Shown one piece after another: positions 14,101 through 50,326 of a stretch of 50,326 nucleotides of DNA. Each line of letters begins with the position of its first letter. Position 1 is the stretch's first letter. A model generated the notes under the pieces. That model worked only from the letters and a program-made list of their open reading frames with translations. It had not been told where the DNA came from and did no database searches. This DNA comes from a virus, in IMG/VR virus record IMGVR_UViG_3300033156_000254, positions 1 to 50,326 of that record. One strand, given 5' to 3'. Made by a program: the position numbers and the translations under genes.

Positions 14101-14985
14101 ATGTTTGAGCTGATCGATTGCACGGAGAACCCGGTGGGGTTAATAGCTGCTTGTGCTAGAGTTTCCCATAATTCGTTTGCGGTTTCATCTCCCCAGAATA
14201 ACGCCCGGCTAGTGAGCAAACTAATTGAGCTTGGACACCTTTCATCTCTAGAGTTTGCCAGAGCCACCTTCTATGTTAGCCCTAACGGGTTCCGGCAAGT
14301 TCGAGAAGAAGTGGTGGAGATGATGGCAGATAGTCACGGATGGGCTGCATCATTGGATCGTGGTGCTGTCTATATCACTTTGAATGCAAGGACCATATAT
14401 GAGTTACTACAACGGCGTAGTGACTTAGTAGGCGATATGGTGTCCTTGCTCCCCGGGCCATGGAAAGCCTTACTAGAAGGGAATCCCGAGCCAGCTCCTG
14501 TGGTAGACGGCAATGTATATCTCATGGATGTTTACAAGCCCCCCGTGCCCGCCAGATTTCTGCCACGCCACAGCTATGCTACAGTACACTTCCGGCGGAT
14601 TTCCCGGATTGTGGCTAATCAGATAGTGCGTCACAGGATCGCTAGCTATATGCAAGAATCTCAACGGTACTGCTATGCCACAAAGAATGGGGTCAAAGTT
14701 CCTCCTAGTATAAATAATTCACATCATACGGGCACATTCTTCGCTGCGGTGGCTTATGCGGAAAAAGCATATACCAGGTTAATAGAAGCTGGAGTGCCTA
14801 AAGAAGATGCCCGGTTCATTTATCCCTTGGGGGCTAAAACCAACCTTATTGCGAGTATGAGCATAGAGATGTGGAAACATTTCATCGAATTAAGGGCGTC
14901 TCCGAGTGCTCAATGGGAAATACGAAAGTTGGCTGAGGGGCTACGAGAGGTGATAGTTCAGAAAATGGGGGTGACTTTATCGTGA
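14101..14985 (+). CDS. thyX: ThyX-family flavin-dependent thymidylate synthase, divergent
   Basis: 294 residues from ATG 14101 (GGGGG upstream; the frame is open from 14023 but that part is the stem-loop leader). The ThyX signature RHR-X7-S is at residues 177-187 (RHRIASYMQES), with DARFIYPL and LRASPSAQWEIR following, so fold and dUMP site are kept. Two things differ from the family as I remember it: about 100 extra residues lie between GHLSSLEFA and RHR, and the usual flavin-contact N-x-R before HF..LR reads S-I-E (residues 254-256). With the hypermodification operon at 28 kb, it may make 5-hydroxymethyl-dUMP in place of dTMP. That is inference. Confidence 0.85.
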   Translation: MFELIDCTENPVGLIAACARVSHNSFAVSSPQNNARLVSKLIELGHLSSLEFARATFYVSPNGFRQVREEVVEMMADSHGWAASLDRGAVYITLNARTIYELLQRRSDLVGDMVSLLPGPWKALLEGNPEPAPVVDGNVYLMDVYKPPVPARFLPRHSYATVHFRRISRIVANQIVRHRIASYMQESQRYCYATKNGVKVPPSINNSHHTGTFFAAVAYAEKAYTRLIEAGVPKEDARFIYPLGAKTNLIASMSIEMWKHFIELRASPSAQWEIRKLAEGLREVIVQKMGVTLS

Positions 14986-22916: not shown

Positions 22917-23168
22917 GTGTCGCTTGCCGATATAGAGCTGTGTGATCGTCAGTTACAAGAGCTAGCCAATCTGGGATATACAGGGCAGCTAGTGGTGCAT
23001 ATGCATCAGGGGCGCATTCGCAGGATCACTATTGAAGGAGCAGTGCTAGTTGACGGAGGCGAGCAGAGGCTACACCTAGTTCCAGCGGTTGGATATAACA
23101 AGGGGGGCGGTCGTGAAGGCAGCGGAATTCCAGGCCAAGCTGCGAGAGCAAAGGAAGCTGTACGGTGA
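22917..23168 (+). CDS. small hypothetical protein
   Basis: 83 residues from GTG 22917, SD GGAGGAG. Helix then strands (CDRQLQELANLGYTGQLVVH; RRITIEGAVLVDGG). Its last 56 bases overlap the RNA ligase start, and residues there are low-complexity Gly/Ala/Arg, so the true gene matters only to about residue 65. Confidence 0.45.
   Translation: MSLADIELCDRQLQELANLGYTGQLVVHMHQGRIRRITIEGAVLVDGGEQRLHLVPAVGYNKGGGREGSGIPGQAARAKEAVR
23103..23113 (+). repeat. GGGGCGGTCG start-associated copy (RNA ligase)
   Basis: GGGGGCGGTCG shares its last G with the GTG start at 23113. AAGGGGGG serves as the SD-like run. A TATAAC lies at 23094-23099. Confidence 0.85.
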
Positions 23169-24063
23169 CTGGCTATATCGTTATCAACATGTCGAGCGAC
23201 TTGGCGACGATGAAGTAGACGGCCTGCTTGATGGCACGGTAGTTGTACAAGAGAAGATTGATGGAGCTAATGCCACCGTAGCATGGGATGAGGATGCTGG
23301 GCTTTTAGTTTGTACGCGTAACCGGGCTATATCTATTGGCGGTGAACCTCCTAACGGTTTCAGGGGCCTTGTCGAATATGTGCTAGCCCACGATGGAATC
23401 AAAGAACTTTTTCAATCCCATCCTGATTGGATCTTGCGAGGTGAGTGGCTAGTTCGTCATAGCGTTGTCTATCCCATTGAGTACATGAACAAGCTGTACG
23501 TGTTCGACGTGCAGTTGCGGGATGGTAGCTATATTCCTTGGCAAGAATACAAAGATGTTCTCTCTGCATTCAAGATAGAGATGGTGCCACATATTGCGGT
23601 CATGGAGAATCCTACCGTGGCGGATCTTGTCCCCTTGACTCAGGAGCCTAGCCTACTGGGTGGTGGTGAACGCGAAGGTATCGTGGCCAAGAGATATGAC
23701 TTTGTAAACTGCTATGGCCGTACGGTATGGGGCAAGTTGGTCTCTGCTGATTTCAGGGAAAAGAACAAACTGCATTTCGGTGCTGGGCATAAAGAGCCAG
23801 TAGAGCTTCAGTTTGCCGCAGCCTGTGTAACTGAGCACCTAGTGCTCAAGATCATTGACAAGATACATGATGAGCGGGGCTCGGTGAGTGTGCGCAATAT
23901 GCCCGAGATCCTGGGGCGGGCATGGCATGATGTGTTCAACGAGGAGCTTTGGGGCTTTGTAAAGAAGCACAGAGTTGGCAAGTTTGACTTTCGGGCTGCC
24001 CGCAAGTTGGTGGAACGAAAGACTCGGGATATTGCGCTGGCCTACTTCAACGGAGTATTATGA
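23113..24063 (+). CDS. RNA ligase (nucleotidyltransferase family)
   Basis: 316 residues from GTG 23113. Motif I is EKIDGANA with nucleophile Lys48. Then RNRAISIGG (motif Ia/III region), LRGEWLVRH (III), EGIVAKR (IV) and WGKLVSADF (V) follow in order. Family: Rnl2/DRB0094-like ligases that reseal nicked or cleaved RNA, for example tRNA cut by host defence. It is coupled to the RusA-like gene by a 4-base overlap. No polynucleotide kinase is seen alongside. Confidence 0.8.
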   Translation: MKAAEFQAKLREQRKLYGDWLYRYQHVERLGDDEVDGLLDGTVVVQEKIDGANATVAWDEDAGLLVCTRNRAISIGGEPPNGFRGLVEYVLAHDGIKELFQSHPDWILRGEWLVRHSVVYPIEYMNKLYVFDVQLRDGSYIPWQEYKDVLSAFKIEMVPHIAVMENPTVADLVPLTQEPSLLGGGEREGIVAKRYDFVNCYGRTVWGKLVSADFREKNKLHFGAGHKEPVELQFAAACVTEHLVLKIIDKIHDERGSVSVRNMPEILGRAWHDVFNEELWGFVKKHRVGKFDFRAARKLVERKTRDIALAYFNGVL

Positions 24064-28015: not shown

Positions 28016-28597
28016 ATGAAGATCGTCAAAAAGAAAGTGTCGGATTTGGCGTTTGCCCCCTATAACCCTCGCCAGATTGATGATATTACCTTAGATAAAT
28101 TGACAGCAAGCATTGAACGGTTTGGGTATGTGGAACCCATAGTGGTGAACAAGCGGACAGGGCATATTGTGGGTGGGGAGCAGCGCGCCAAGGCCCTCGC
28201 TAAATTGGGGATTGATGAGGTTGAATGTGTGGAAATTGACATAGACCCGGAAAGCGAAAAAGCACTGAACTTGGCACTTAACAAGATCGAGGGCACATGG
28301 GACTATGAAAAACTGCGGGCGGTCTTTGCCGAATTAGATGCTGAGCTAACTCCCCTAACCGGTTTCGGTCCTGAAGAGATTGCCGTGTTGACGGCTGATT
28401 TTGATGACTTGGACTTGAGTGACATAGAAGATGAGATTTCTGAGCTAGAGGAAAAGGCAAACGACAAGGGGGCCAATTATGTAGTATACCTTTCGTTCCC
28501 TAGCAAGGAAGAGGCCGAGTCCTGGTTGGTCAATAACGGCTTTGAAAAGCATGCCTTCAAACCAGGGGCGCGGACTATGGTCATTGAAATGGGATGA
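28016..28597 (+). CDS. ParB/Srx-fold protein of the modification operon
   Basis: 193 residues. LAFAPYNPRQIDDITLDKL, then VVNKRTGHIVGGEQRAKALA, is the ParB N-terminal domain (NPR and GGEQR motifs). The C-terminal half is acidic (DDLDLSDIEDEISELEEKAN), then a small alpha/beta part. There is no helix-turn-helix, so it is not a plasmid-type partition protein. ParB-fold proteins of this type are regularly encoded beside phage DNA-modification enzymes and may act as nucleotide-dependent DNA-binding or nuclease factors. Overlaps the kinase gene by 4 bases. Confidence 0.8.
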   Translation: MKIVKKKVSDLAFAPYNPRQIDDITLDKLTASIERFGYVEPIVVNKRTGHIVGGEQRAKALAKLGIDEVECVEIDIDPESEKALNLALNKIEGTWDYEKLRAVFAELDAELTPLTGFGPEEIAVLTADFDDLDLSDIEDEISELEEKANDKGANYVVYLSFPSKEEAESWLVNNGFEKHAFKPGARTMVIEMG

Positions 28598-29067
28598 TTT
28601 ACATTGTGATAGGCCAATCCGGTTCGGGCAAGACGACATTTGTCAAACAGCGCTGGCTTACGGGGGACAGTCAAATAGTAGAGGGCAACGTGCCTTATAC
28701 GTTGTGCGAAGGGTGTGCGTTGATCGGCAAGTATGACGTTGGGCTCAGGACAGAGGGGACAGACACGCTCCCTTACAATGCCTTGCCCCGGATTCTGAAA
28801 CAGATTGACCGTTTGTATCCGCACATGGACATAGTCTTGGAGGGGGATCGGATTAACAACGGGCGGCTGTTTGAGCACATACTGCGGCGGGGTTATGCGG
28901 CCAAACTCTTTTTGCTTAGATGCCCCCTTATGACGTCGATAAAGAGGCTAAGGGCAGCGGGTTCCAAGATCACCCCCACATTTGTGAAGGCCACGCGCAC
29001 AAAGAGCGAGCGCAACTTTTTGCGGTATGCAGCCGCGATGAATGGGGAAGTGGTGGTGACCGGCTAA
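28594..29067 (+). CDS. small P-loop kinase, predicted 5-hydroxymethyl-dU DNA kinase
   Basis: 157 residues. Walker A GQSGSGKT at residues 7-14. The order EGTDTLPYNALP, DIVLEGDRINN, KLFLLRCP and TRTKSERNFLR fits a small phage kinase group that lies beside ParB-fold and amino acid:DNA transferase genes and is assigned (Iyer, Aravind; Lee, Weigele) to phosphorylate 5-hydroxymethyl-dU in DNA. The phosphorylated base is then displaced by an amino-acid or amine nucleophile. ATG overlaps ParB by 4 bases and the stop shares one base with the next ATG. Substrate assignment rests on family memory and the neighbours. Confidence 0.7.
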   Translation: MIYIVIGQSGSGKTTFVKQRWLTGDSQIVEGNVPYTLCEGCALIGKYDVGLRTEGTDTLPYNALPRILKQIDRLYPHMDIVLEGDRINNGRLFEHILRRGYAAKLFLLRCPLMTSIKRLRAAGSKITPTFVKATRTKSERNFLRYAAAMNGEVVVTG

Positions 29068-29711
29068 TGTGTGGGATCATTGGCTATTATTCCCAAAATC
29101 CTGTGCCAGAACACTTTGAACTTTTCTACTCTTTAGCTAAAGAGGCTAAAATACGGGGGCTACATGCGTTTGGTGTTTCCTATTATGAGGGCGATTGCAT
29201 AGTAACGCGCAAGTGGTTTTCTTTCCCCAATCGGGACCAGATGGGGCCGGTTTGTGAAAACGGCCGTGCCATTTGGCACAATCGTTATTCCACTAGTGGC
29301 GATTGGCGCGTGATGGCCAACAATCAACCCATAGACATTGGCTTTATATCCGTTGCTCTCAATGGCGTGATTACAATGGCCCCCAAGGAAGAATGGGAAG
29401 AAGAATTTGGGGTGTGCTGTATCTCCAATAATGACGCTGAAATACTGGCGCGCATTTTAGAAAAAGGCGTAGATCCCGGGAAGTTTGCATCGTCCATACG
29501 GGGTTCTGTGGCGGCTGTTTGGCTGCAAGGCGGGAAGGTTTGGGCGGTTAGGAACCTTCAAAGACCTTTGCATTATTTTGTGGCGAGCGGGGCCGTTTTT
29601 GTGGTTTCTACGGTGGATATAGCTAGGCGCGGCGCTGGGGTTGAGCCAAGACCGGTGCCGCCATTTCGGGCTATAGAGCTAGGGGAGCTAAGTGCTGGAC
29701 TTTCGATTTAG
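29067..29711 (+). CDS. stand-alone class II glutamine amidotransferase
   Basis: 214 residues from ATG 29067 (an open frame from 28920 is rejected because it would hide the catalytic N-terminus). MCGIIGYYS gives the N-terminal nucleophile Cys2. HNRYSTSG at residues 71-78 matches the HxRxxTxG glutamine-site motif. ALNGVI supplies the oxyanion Asn99/Gly100, and NNDAEIL the acidic substrate contact (Asp123). It ends after the glutaminase domain, with no synthase or isomerase domain, so the ammonia must go to a partner protein, most likely a product of this operon. It overlaps the transferase gene by 20 bases. I know of no such gene in characterised thymidine-hypermodification pathways. Confidence 0.85.
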   Translation: MCGIIGYYSQNPVPEHFELFYSLAKEAKIRGLHAFGVSYYEGDCIVTRKWFSFPNRDQMGPVCENGRAIWHNRYSTSGDWRVMANNQPIDIGFISVALNGVITMAPKEEWEEEFGVCCISNNDAEILARILEKGVDPGKFASSIRGSVAAVWLQGGKVWAVRNLQRPLHYFVASGAVFVVSTVDIARRGAGVEPRPVPPFRAIELGELSAGLSI

Positions 29712-30717
29712 CAGGTGGGAAGGCTACAAAAAGTACCATGTTTTGATGATGCGCATTGGGGATTGCGATCCAGCCTATCCTGCATTGAGATACGTAGCGG
29801 ACCGGTTTGAGTTGACTTTAGAACAACGATGTTGGCTGGCCTGGTTATACGCTGCCTCTTACTGTGCAGCCACGGCCTACTATATGATTAGCGAGTTCCC
29901 TGACTACGAAAATGTTGATGTGCGGCGGCTTGAGAATTGGTGGGCGGCTAACAAGCACAGGTGCCTTTTCCAGACTGACCGGTTGAGGGTCAAGACCCAA
30001 GATCAATTTGTGCGGATGTTCGTTTCTTACCGAAAGATGATGGGGGACTCGCAAGTGGAGACTTGGAAGCGTCTGTTGCGTCCAAGTCCCGGCGAGACGT
30101 ATGACGCAGCTTATGAGTGCATGGGGAAACTGTACTATTTCAGCCGTTACTCTTTGTTTTTGTTTTTGGAGGCCGTTCACCGGCTGACTAAGTTTCCGAT
30201 GGCCCCCACGGGCATTGATCTACGCAATGCCGAGAGCTGTCGTAACGGGCTTTGTTATGCAACGCATAAGGATGGATGGGTAAAGCGGCCCCTGACAAAT
30301 GACCAATGGAAGTATTTGCACAGGCGGTTGAAACAGCTTTATCGGGAGTTGAAGGAGGAACATGCTAGCTTGCCCATAGACTACTGGAACATTGAGACCA
30401 GTTTGTGCGCGTACAAAAAGCTATTTTGGCGCACACGTTATTTGGGGTACTACATAGACAGGCAGATGGCGGAGATTATCAAGATGCAATCGGTCGAAGG
30501 TGTGGACTGGTCTGTTTTGTGGGACTTCCGGCGGGAGTTTTTTCACCCGGCGCTGTTGGGGGAGGTAGGCGGCTGGCGCGGCCCGAGGCCCTGGCGGTGC
30601 AACCTGGTCATGGATCGTGGAGCGTTGAGTGATATTCCTTTCCCGGATGTGCAATACAAATATGCCGTAGAGTTTCCGGGAGCATGGAGTGCATATGGGG
30701 AGCCGTCATGGAGATAA
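29692..30717 (+). CDS. amino acid:DNA transferase (aGPT-PPlase/AADT family)
   Basis: 341 residues from GTG 29692. Wholly helical. The order MLDFRFSRWEG, WLAWLYAASYCAATAYYM, RLENWWAANKHRCLFQTD, FVRMFVSYRKMMG, FSRYSLFLFLEAV and AESCRNGLCYA matches my memory of the amino acid:DNA transferase family (alpha-glutamyl/putrescinyl-thymidine pyrophosphorylases). These attack phosphorylated hydroxymethyl-dU in DNA with an amino acid or polyamine and release the phosphate group. With the kinase just upstream this defines a hypermodified-thymidine pathway. The substrate cannot be read from sequence. Confidence 0.75.
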   Translation: MLDFRFSRWEGYKKYHVLMMRIGDCDPAYPALRYVADRFELTLEQRCWLAWLYAASYCAATAYYMISEFPDYENVDVRRLENWWAANKHRCLFQTDRLRVKTQDQFVRMFVSYRKMMGDSQVETWKRLLRPSPGETYDAAYECMGKLYYFSRYSLFLFLEAVHRLTKFPMAPTGIDLRNAESCRNGLCYATHKDGWVKRPLTNDQWKYLHRRLKQLYRELKEEHASLPIDYWNIETSLCAYKKLFWRTRYLGYYIDRQMAEIIKMQSVEGVDWSVLWDFRREFFHPALLGEVGGWRGPRPWRCNLVMDRGALSDIPFPDVQYKYAVEFPGAWSAYGEPSWR

Positions 30718-31127
30718 GGCGATATACAGAGGATGAGGAGCAGTTGGTTCACGATATTTGCTATGGTTGCGGTAGCGCAATGTCTAAGAGAATGTATGCC
30801 TATATTCGCACAGCGCGGTGGTATGCGAAAAAGAGCAAAAGTATCAGCTTTGTTGGATACGTTTTTGGCTATGTCGGATTCTATTGTGGGCTGCTAATGG
30901 CGCGGGATTTCCGCTTGATTGCCTTTGCGGTGTTGGAAGAGCACCAAGGCAAGGGGATTGGAAAAGCAATGTTAGAACACTTGAAAGCGATGGCGGCTGG
31001 GCATGGAGCACAAAGGATTGTGTTCAAAACAGAAAGTGGCAGCGCAGCCTTTGCATGGTGGATCAAAAGGGGGGCATGTCCCGTTCGAGCAGTGGGCGGG
31101 GAAGTAGAAATGGAGGTGAGACTATGA
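30708..31127 (+). CDS. GNAT-family acetyltransferase
   Basis: 139 residues from ATG 30708 (GGGGAG upstream; the frame opens at 30684). LEEHQGKGIGKAMLEHLKAM is the acetyl-CoA binding motif A (Q/RxxGxG/A). FAVLEEH precedes it, and the C-terminal IVFKTESGSAAFAWWIKRGA is motif B. GNAT genes occur in phage modification clusters, where they could acylate the new amine on the base. Overlaps the transferase by 10 bases and the radical SAM gene by 4. Confidence 0.85.
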   Translation: MEIRRYTEDEEQLVHDICYGCGSAMSKRMYAYIRTARWYAKKSKSISFVGYVFGYVGFYCGLLMARDFRLIAFAVLEEHQGKGIGKAMLEHLKAMAAGHGAQRIVFKTESGSAAFAWWIKRGACPVRAVGGEVEMEVRL

Positions 31128-32434
31128 AGTTGGATTATGTTTCTCCAAGATGGTCACAAGAGATACTGGATTGTTCAATGCCCATGACGTTTGACACTTA
31201 TTCCGTTTGCTCATTCGGATGTCTGTACTGCTTTTCCTTCTTTCAAAAGTCTCATATCACGAAGGGGTATTTGGACAAAAACGTAAGGGCAGTTAATCCG
31301 GACAAGGTTAAGGCTATGTTTGCGGCAATCCTATCTGGCAATCGGGATAAGTTGAACAAGGAGCAGCGGCAATTCATCCCTTATGTAACGGGGCGCTATG
31401 TCATGCAATGGGGGGCTTTGGCAGATCAGTTTGATGAATTCGAACATCATTACGGAATCACATTGGATCTTATGAAATTCTTTGATGAAATAGACTACCC
31501 GCTGTCATTTTCGACCAAAGCAACTTGGTGGACTGATGATGACAGATATATGGAGCTCGTAAGGCGGCATCCGCACAATTGGCACTTTAAGATTTCAATT
31601 ATCACCGCTGACGAGCGCAAGGCCAGAATAATTGAAGCTGGCGTTCCATCTCCCCAAGAGCGGCTTGAGGCGATATATCGCCTTGCGCGTGCCGGGGCAC
31701 ATGTTACATTGCGGTTGAGACCCTACATGATAGGTGTCTCGGAGGATTACGCGAAGCTGATCGAGATGGCAAAGGATGCAGGGGCCGATAGCGTTACCAC
31801 GGAATTTTTGTGCTTGGAGGCAAGAGCAGACAAGCGGCTTAAGGCTCGTTACCAGGCCATGAGCAAGGTTGCCGGATTTGATATTTTTAAATTCTATCTG
31901 GAACACTCACCCCAGCATGGTTACAAGCGGTTGTCTAGAGAGATCAAAGCCCCCATCATCTTCAAAATACGAGCCGAGACCATCAAACATGGGCTAAGAT
32001 TTCACGTCTCTGATGCAGCCTGCAGAGAATTAAATGATGCCCCCAATTGTTGCGGGGTTCCCCCAGAGTGGAAGTCTCAGACGGCCCATTTTGGTTCTGC
32101 TATCTTGATTGCCAAAGAGCGGGGCGTGGTTCACTTTAGCGATATAAGGGATGGAATCAAAGAACTATTTTCGGGGTTCCTTTGGCATCGTGCGCGGGCG
32201 TTTAATACGTCTAGCAATAAGCATCGGGCATTGTACGCTCACGCTACTATGGCAGACTGGATCCGTTATGTTTGGAATCATCCCCATCTTGGCACTAGTC
32301 CAATGAAAATGTATGGTGGCATATTGGTGCCGCAAGGGCTAGATGTCAATGGCGATGTGATCTATGCCTACCGAGAACGTTCTTCTCCCAGCAAGGGTAG
32401 TTGTCCCCCGAATAGTGGAATCTGTCCGGGGTGA
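31124..32434 (+). CDS. radical SAM enzyme of the modification operon
   Basis: 436 residues from ATG 31124 (SD GGAGGTGAG, ATGA overlap). CSFGCLYC gives the C-x3-C-x2-C cluster at Cys29/33/36. Radical SAM barrel strands follow (PLSFSTKATWW; WHFKISIITADE; GAHVTLRLRPYM; SVTTEFLCLEARA). A second Cys group (CRELNDAPNCCG) is like auxiliary cysteines in SPL-like members. It probably performs a rearrangement or C-N/C-C chemistry on the modified base or its amino-acid adduct. Its last 67 bases overlap the convergent small gene. Confidence 0.85.
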   Translation: MKLDYVSPRWSQEILDCSMPMTFDTYSVCSFGCLYCFSFFQKSHITKGYLDKNVRAVNPDKVKAMFAAILSGNRDKLNKEQRQFIPYVTGRYVMQWGALADQFDEFEHHYGITLDLMKFFDEIDYPLSFSTKATWWTDDDRYMELVRRHPHNWHFKISIITADERKARIIEAGVPSPQERLEAIYRLARAGAHVTLRLRPYMIGVSEDYAKLIEMAKDAGADSVTTEFLCLEARADKRLKARYQAMSKVAGFDIFKFYLEHSPQHGYKRLSREIKAPIIFKIRAETIKHGLRFHVSDAACRELNDAPNCCGVPPEWKSQTAHFGSAILIAKERGVVHFSDIRDGIKELFSGFLWHRARAFNTSSNKHRALYAHATMADWIRYVWNHPHLGTSPMKMYGGILVPQGLDVNGDVIYAYRERSSPSKGSCPPNSGICPG

Positions 32435-49723: not shown

Positions 49724-50326
49724 ATGGCAACTTATGTCAAGTGGGCAGATACGATTGTTGACGATAGCGGCATTGTCATACCGTCGGTAACTGTTACAGT
49801 AAAAGATCCTGATACAGGGGATCCCATTACTATCTATAGTGATCGGGCAGGAACCACAAAGGGCAATCCATTTACAACCGGCGTTGATGGCATAGCCGAA
49901 TTCTATGTAGATGTCGAAACCAATCCCCGAATAAAAATAGAATTATCTAAAACAGACTATGATTTTACGGCAGCTAATGAGATGCTGAATGATGTTTACT
50001 TGGCGAGCAAAGGAGAAACTCTCGGTAGCCTTTCCGACGTGACTATTTCCTCCCCGTCAAATGATGAACTTCTGGCCTACGACGCCGGATCGGGGAAATG
50101 GATCAATCAAACGCCAAGCGAAGCCGGATTGCTTGCCGCTGACGGTTCAGTTCCCCTGACTGCTGACTGGGACGTAGGAGGTCACTCTCTCAGCAGTGTG
50201 TTGTCATTGGACCAGACAGGGCAAGGTGGCCAAACCGGCTATGAGGGAGCCTTTAGAGGGGTTGCAGATGCACGGGATTTTGGTGCTGTTCTGGACGGGA
50301 CAACAGATGACAGCGCTGCAATCCAA
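49724..50326 (+). CDS. tailspike / tail fibre (N-terminal part; continues at 2-1147)
   Basis: 201 codons to the end of the window, continuing in frame at base 65 after the 64-bp repeat. MATYVKWADTIVDDSGIVIP, TVTVKDPDTGDPITIYSDRA and DGIAEFYVDVETNPRIKIEL form a beta-sandwich head domain that likely docks to the tail. A linker with DVTISSPSNDELLAYDAGSG and PLTADWDVGGHSLSSVLSLD (a common fibre repeat) leads to the pectate-lyase-like beta-helix at about residue 181. Confidence 0.85.
   Translation, partial: MATYVKWADTIVDDSGIVIPSVTVTVKDPDTGDPITIYSDRAGTTKGNPFTTGVDGIAEFYVDVETNPRIKIELSKTDYDFTAANEMLNDVYLASKGETLGSLSDVTISSPSNDELLAYDAGSGKWINQTPSEAGLLAADGSVPLTADWDVGGHSLSSVLSLDQTGQGGQTGYEGAFRGVADARDFGAVLDGTTDDSAAIQ
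50263..50326. repeat. 64-bp terminal direct repeat (right copy)
   Basis: Identical to 1-64. See the left copy. Confidence 0.95.

Follow-up and report, generated by a model that had tools for sequence, protein, structure and literature searches.

A phage operon predicted to serve a novel form of thymidine hypermodification, with a radical SAM enzyme as candidate counterpart of TET/JBP and a glutaminase linked to the DNA transferase

The operon of six genes at positions 28016-32434 of a 50,326-nucleotide viral stretch (IMG/VR record IMGVR_UViG_3300033156_000254, positions 1 to 50,326; the whole stretch is called the window here) very probably serves a novel form of thymidine hypermodification in a phage. 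We have little doubt that it hypermodifies thymidine in DNA, and we lean towards its last product, a radical S-adenosylmethionine (SAM) enzyme, as the maker of the hydroxymethyl handle. The six open reading frames (ORFs), all on the + strand and each with a start that overlaps or abuts the preceding stop, encode, in this order, a ParB-fold protein, a P-loop kinase, a glutaminase, an ADDT family transferase, a GNAT acyltransferase and the radical SAM enzyme; the tight overlap described in an earlier note on this DNA was recovered, with every ORF at the same position. The operon is not a product of chance, since all six genes match known families and dozens of unrelated contigs carry the same set. 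The 50.3 kb window is a complete phage genome, circularly permuted or terminally redundant, with positions 1-64 identical to 50263-50326 (a 64-base terminal repeat). Because the genome is complete, absences within it are meaningful. The comparison covered ~180 related loci; these were sampled via two anchor genes, with near-copies included, and the counts given below are therefore not counts of independent events.

The thymidine-hypermodification reading holds because the transferase (29692-30717, + strand, 341 aa, GTG start) matches the ADDT family in sequence and a glycinyltransferase of 5-phosphomethyldeoxyuridine (5-phosphomethyl-dU, 5-PmdU) in fold. The protein, termed a helical transferase in the earlier note, aligns with PF18724 over residues 23-245 (2.2e-18; 67.3 bits, cut-off 26.2). 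Its AlphaFold2 model (pLDDT 91.5) has only two confident PDB matches in Foldseek, 8z2m and 8z2n (prob 1.00, TMt 0.56-0.63), which represent gp46/PUGT, the 5-PmdU glycinyltransferase of a Pseudomonas phage; a sequence search of PDB with the ADDT alignment gave nothing useful. The shared fold goes with only ~15% identity and, unlike gp46/PUGT, for which no glutaminase partner is named, the window ADDT belongs to an extended, distinct clade. Sequence relatives occur in Ackermannviridae, for example in Shigella phage Ag3 and Dickeya phage LIMEstone1. Phage ViI, a known hypermodifier of thymidine, belongs to the same family.

The kinase-plus-transferase core of thymidine hypermodification, which the earlier note had postulated, is thus borne out on the transferase side by the PF18724 match and the 8z2m/8z2n fold. 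The expectation that both the 341- and the 157-aa proteins would match modification families held for the former, as an ADDT; the latter, the P-loop kinase (28594-29067, + strand, 157 aa, Walker A GQSGSGKTT), matched no named HMUDK. Its sole match is the generic model Ploopntkinase3 (2.2e-5; 24.5 bits, slightly under the curated cut-off of 27), and its role as a DNA kinase therefore rests on context. It is predicted to be a 5-hydroxymethyl-dU DNA kinase yielding 5-phosphomethyl-dU, from which the ADDT is in turn predicted to displace the phosphate.

In phages M6, ViI and phiW-14, 5-hydroxymethyl-dU in DNA is phosphorylated by a 5-hydroxymethyl-dU DNA kinase and then passed to an alkylamine or amino-acid transferase (PMC6449724). 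The window operon has the same DNA-level logic and, like theirs, unites an ADDT family transferase, a P-loop kinase, a GNAT and a radical SAM enzyme. Unlike these phages, the window pairs its transferase with a PurF-like glutaminase, its radical SAM enzyme seems to act before the transferase rather than after it, and neither a hydroxymethylase of the thymidylate-synthase type (PF00303) nor a pyridoxal phosphate (PLP) enzyme was found. The absence of PLP enzymes beside the operon, pointed out earlier, thus extends to the whole genome, where a scan of proteins above ~75 aa turned up none, nor any 2-oxoglutarate dioxygenase or PF00303 protein. The classical route, in which a PF00303 hydroxymethylase supplies 5-hmdUMP, was seen neither in the window nor in 26 long relatives, and Tet_JBP, the dioxygenase on which TET/JBP-dependent modification relies, is likewise absent from the window genome.

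Where, then, does the hydroxymethyl handle come from, a point on which the earlier note was silent? In most viral contigs with a glutaminase operon, the gene order is ParB - Tet_JBP - glutaminase - GNAT - ADDT - kinase, and Tet_JBP is present in 62 glutaminase loci. Such TET/JBP operons (Tet_JBP and kinase with ADDT or TAGT) have ParB, glutaminase, GNAT, ADDT and kinase in common with the window; unlike them, the window has a radical SAM enzyme in place of the O2-dependent dioxygenase, and the radical SAM family occurs almost exclusively in anaerobes. Radical SAM and JBP genes co-occur in no collected locus. Tet_JBP (search model PF12851) was found in 0/27 long radical-SAM records, the window included, whereas the same search was positive in 17/22 records, mostly of the glutaminase set, which served as control. 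PF00303 and ThyX were each found in 0/26 long radical-SAM records, and ThyX was rejected as a general handle-maker on account of its absence from these 26 relatives. Along the ADDT tree, the type of handle-making enzyme switches four times or more. One glutaminase record with neither radical SAM nor Tet_JBP (L138) carries a PF00303 protein, a third way to the handle, and in another (L153) no handle-making gene was found.

The radical SAM protein has 135 relatives in viral contigs, 80 of which were kept, and almost none in isolated phages. Their genes mostly adjoin ParB and are closely followed by terminase or portal genes; the variable part in between consists of ADDT, kinase and GNAT, of TAGT glycosyltransferases, or of other sets; the family stands beside ADDT in 43/110 loci and beside a TAGT glycosyltransferase in 41/110. 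The ParB profile is matched in 94/110 radical-SAM and 56/64 JBP loci, the kinase in 55/110 and 56/64, and the GNAT in 42/110 and 52/64, respectively, and a SAM synthetase accompanies 27/110 radical-SAM loci as against 0/64 JBP loci (p ~1e-6). Since the radical SAM family is common to two unlike transferases that both require a handle, and since it holds the place of TET/JBP, the simplest proposal is that it makes that handle. Its alternation with TET/JBP and its presence beside glycosyltransferases without ADDT argue, therefore, for an earlier, shared step.

The enzyme itself (31124-32434, + strand, 436 aa) has the CX3CX2C motif of the radical SAM superfamily at Cys29/33/36 and matches PF04055 (5.7e-7; 30.3 bits, cut-off 29.5). 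The best Foldseek match of its model is spore photoproduct lyase (SPL; E 2e-5, prob 1.00), itself a radical SAM enzyme that acts on thymine within DNA. Its score against the SPL family model is far below threshold (TIGR04070, 16.3 bits against 400), and the resemblance appears from the model to be one of fold only. Unlike SPL, the window enzyme is ~100 residues longer, is phage-encoded within modification operons and has four extra invariant cysteines, C17, C230, C309 and C310, beyond the triad of the radical cluster. Among its relatives, C29, C33, C36, C309 and C310 are kept in 110/110 and C17 and C230 in 109/110. Judging by this conservation, the four could perhaps hold an auxiliary Fe-S cluster that accepts a second electron.

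In bacterial and archaeal genomes, the radical SAM family was found in 30 loci, nearly all of obligate-anaerobe lineages (Clostridia, Selenomonadaceae, Bacteroidales, Methanobrevibacter and others, with L168 and L186 left unassigned as to oxygen), including the sequenced isolates Bacteroides fragilis S82, whose locus holds ParB, ADDT, kinase and radical SAM, and Selenomonas ruminantium S137, with ParB, kinase and radical SAM. The JBP relatives of isolated phages have aerobic hosts. A Tet_JBP and TAGT pair occurs in Nonlabens phage P12024L, and Methylophilales phage Melnitz-3 carries a relative of the kinase close to its Tet_JBP gene. In Pelagibacter phage HTVC112P, the Tet_JBP gene (MN698246.1 gp18) is misnamed DnaJ/SNF2.

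The second distinctive component is a stand-alone class II glutamine amidotransferase (29067-29711, + strand, 214 aa, starting MCGIIGYYS; GATase_6 2.5e-6). The mechanically called ORF, from 28920, is too long, the real start being at 29067. The match to PF13522 is barely above the cut-off, and the nearest solved relatives are PurF first and GlmS next. The protein has the N-terminal Cys, the Arg and Thr/Ser of HxRxxTSG, the NG pair and the Asp of class II amidotransferases; C2, N99, G100 and D123 are kept in 79/79 relatives and R73 in 78/79. The earlier assignment as a stand-alone class II glutaminase domain is therefore sound, with nucleophile and glutamine-binding residues invariant or nearly so. 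Like PurF and GlmS, it has this Cys nucleophile and glutamine-binding set; unlike them, it is a stand-alone domain of ~205 aa with no synthase domain and with a DNA transferase as partner.

A search of viral contigs with the single glutaminase protein gave no match; a two-row alignment of the window glutaminase and that of L063, used as search profile, led to 72 viral loci. On first annotation, ADDT was also encoded in 69/70 viral-scan loci with a glutaminase ORF. In all 74 loci that hold both (74/74), ADDT lies downstream of the glutaminase on the same strand, in many with GNAT between, and these loci usually also hold kinase, GNAT and ParB. The link between glutaminase and transferase seen in the window is thus not confined to this genome, and the two very likely work together. 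On the ADDT tree, which has several long branches and is unsure in its details, a starred branch separates the glutaminase-linked ADDTs from the short ADDTs of radical-SAM loci that have no glutaminase, and each set has its own pattern of conserved positions. The glutaminase side includes radical-SAM rows without a glutaminase, namely L020, whose contig starts inside the locus, L167 and L183, as well as a Microbacterium phage row (L004), also without one.

Taken together, we propose that the operon hypermodifies thymidine after replication and is an adaptation to anaerobic hosts; we give the full series of steps an even chance. In the first step, the SPL-like radical SAM enzyme would take a hydrogen from the 5-methyl group of thymine in DNA; loss of a second electron, perhaps to the auxiliary Fe-S cluster, would leave a cation that adds water to give 5-hydroxymethyl-dU, the counterpart of the job done with O2 by TET/JBP in the sister operons. 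The kinase, judged from its family, would then phosphorylate the hydroxymethyl group. In the third step, the ADDT, an enzyme type that is itself supported, would displace the phosphate with ammonia released by the glutaminase, yielding 5-aminomethyl-dU. The natural model for this step is PurF, because there ammonia displaces pyrophosphate; that ammonia replaces the amino acid as nucleophile of the ADDT, in line with the direct displacement of phosphate raised in the earlier note, is a plausible suggestion that we rate just short of even. Finally, the GNAT would acylate the amine to an N-acylated aminomethyl-type base, while ParB would guide the complex to DNA. The combined proposition, that the radical SAM family is the O2-independent counterpart of TET/JBP, acting on the thymine 5-methyl of double-stranded DNA and serving either a glycosyltransferase or kinase plus ADDT, and that in the glutaminase-bearing subset glutaminase and ADDT together constitute a DNA amidotransferase whose 5-aminomethyl-dU is then N-acylated, is put forward tentatively, as we doubt it somewhat more than we credit it.

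An alternative explanation, akin to the later radical rearrangement envisaged in the earlier note, is that the radical SAM enzyme is an isomerase that tailors the adduct late, the handle coming from elsewhere, such as ThyX or an unrecognised hydroxymethylase. Lee et al. are said to have described, in 2022, radical SAM isomerases in thymidine hypermodification, and the window genome does have a ThyX (14101-14985, + strand; PF02511 1.7e-46; TIGR02170 above cut-off). However, its motif, RHRIASYMQES, is canonical, and ThyX and PF00303 are each missing from 26/26 long relatives; the window ThyX is probably an ordinary supplier of dTMP outside the conserved system. Moreover, the same radical SAM family never occurs with TET/JBP and is present in glycosyltransferase modules that have no ADDT, as well as in loci where no transferase was recognised. 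Late tailoring is for these reasons unlikely, and the rearrangement step as earlier conceived is probably wrong. A rival reading of the glutaminase is that it donates no ammonia and instead, like EgtC, acts by hydrolysis or transfer on the gamma-glutamyl group of an adduct installed by the ADDT; the amino acid would then be glutamine or glutamate (cf. the alpha-glutamylthymine of SP10). This would suit a stand-alone glutaminase with no fused synthase domain and an ADDT whose relatives use amino acids, as the solved 5-PmdU glycinyltransferase does. Yet PurF and GlmS are the nearest relatives, the full glutamine-binding set is invariant or nearly so, and the ADDTs linked to a glutaminase stand apart as a group, with changes at conserved positions, so that we regard gamma-glutamyl chemistry as somewhat unlikely and prefer the donation of ammonia to the ADDT.

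The base modified by the operon might, in principle, be 5-methylcytosine or hydroxymethylcytosine rather than thymine. TAGT glycosyltransferases, named after TET in Pfam and possibly active on hydroxymethylcytosine, stand in the 41/110 radical-SAM loci mentioned, and a few records have C5-methyltransferases. But such methyltransferases occur in only 3/36 records, and their rarity therefore favours thymine as the target and makes 5-methylcytosine an unlikely one; the structural relative of the ADDT acts on 5-phosphomethyl-dU, and SPL acts on thymine. A cytosine target is thus quite improbable. We give hardly any credence to the notion that the target is not DNA but a peptide, the cell wall or another small molecule, on the pattern of the amidoligase/ATP-grasp cluster found in LUZ24-type phages. 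A distant relative of the glutaminase, LUZ24 gp19, does lie among amidoligase/ATP-grasp genes, and one glutaminase/ADDT locus (L087) has an Amidoligase_2 gene; against this, ADDT, ParB, the alternation with TET/JBP and the links to TAGT all indicate DNA. The glutaminase matches in isolated phages were those of LUZ24 and its relatives, and these loci, amidoligase/ATP-grasp operons where inspected, were set aside as a different context.

Several observations weigh against the handle-making radical SAM enzyme and the ammonia-using ADDT that we favour. The radical SAM sequence is remote from SPL (Pfam SPL E 0.13), a sequence search of PDB with the radical SAM alignment gave no match, and C17, C230, C309 and C310 are grouped on the strength of their conservation. 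No recognised transferase is present in 27/113 radical-SAM loci. As radical SAM enzymes are on the whole more frequent in anaerobes, the anaerobe skew of the hosts is weak on its own. The window carries a ThyX, while most relatives are without one. L167 and L183, close relatives of the window, have ADDT, kinase, GNAT and radical SAM and no glutaminase; therefore, the glutaminase is not always needed. The chemistry, finally, is a prediction throughout.

No prior description of the glutaminase-ADDT pair or of the alternation between radical SAM and TET/JBP was found in the literature searched, which did not include Lee 2018, Lee 2022 and Iyer 2013; nor did any paper come up on 5-PmdU, or on base J in combination with radical SAM. 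If the radical SAM reading is true, it would represent a new enzymatic activity on DNA and explain hydroxymethyl pyrimidines in the DNA of phages of anaerobes, where the O2-dependent TET/JBP cannot work. A base-modifying radical SAM enzyme would then join the anaerobic-for-aerobic enzyme pairs, such as HemN/HemF and anSME/FGE. If the glutaminase reading is also true, there would be, in addition, a DNA-directed amidotransferase that draws on glutamine nitrogen.

The remaining genes of the operon are a ParB-fold protein (28016-28597, + strand, 193 aa; Pfam ParB_N 2e-7; PHROG ParB-like 1.9e-41), probably a DNA-binding or targeting partner, and a GNAT acyltransferase (30708-31127, + strand, 139 aa, or 147 aa from an earlier ATG; Acetyltransf_1 5.9e-9), predicted to acylate the newly formed amine. 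PHROG 800 wrongly files relatives of the modification kinase as terminase small subunit.

Some of the related loci have peculiarities of their own. L051:4077-9659 encodes ParB, kinase, a PALP-type PLP enzyme, a second radical SAM enzyme, ADDT and the radical SAM family protein, and is a PLP-containing variant of the same system. In L012:3855-5829 and L078, the variable part pairs a TAGT glycosyltransferase with a further radical SAM protein, which in L012 has a SPASM match. In L013:6415-8640, L019 and L021, genes for a TAGT glycosyltransferase and for two proteins that resemble APH/HAD and cytidylyltransferases are grouped upstream of radical SAM and the ParB genes, a trio that may perhaps make and transfer to DNA an unusual nucleotide-activated sugar or alditol. 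An Amidoligase_2 protein follows ADDT in the glutaminase loci L087:2213-3217 (Pfam 2.2e-7) and L130:11606-12604 (similar by eye), possibly for a further amide-forming tailoring step. In L130:6426-9217, an intein-like Hint domain splits the radical SAM gene at CX3CX2C, with a homing-endonuclease-like ORF between the halves. L177 and L178 (JAFYOI010000001.1) are two apparently identical copies of ParB-ADDT-kinase-GNAT-radical SAM, ~54 kb apart, that represent either an assembly artefact or tandem prophages. Elsewhere in the window, the replication/recombination region encodes an RNA ligase family protein at 23089-24063 (PF09414, 3.8e-21).

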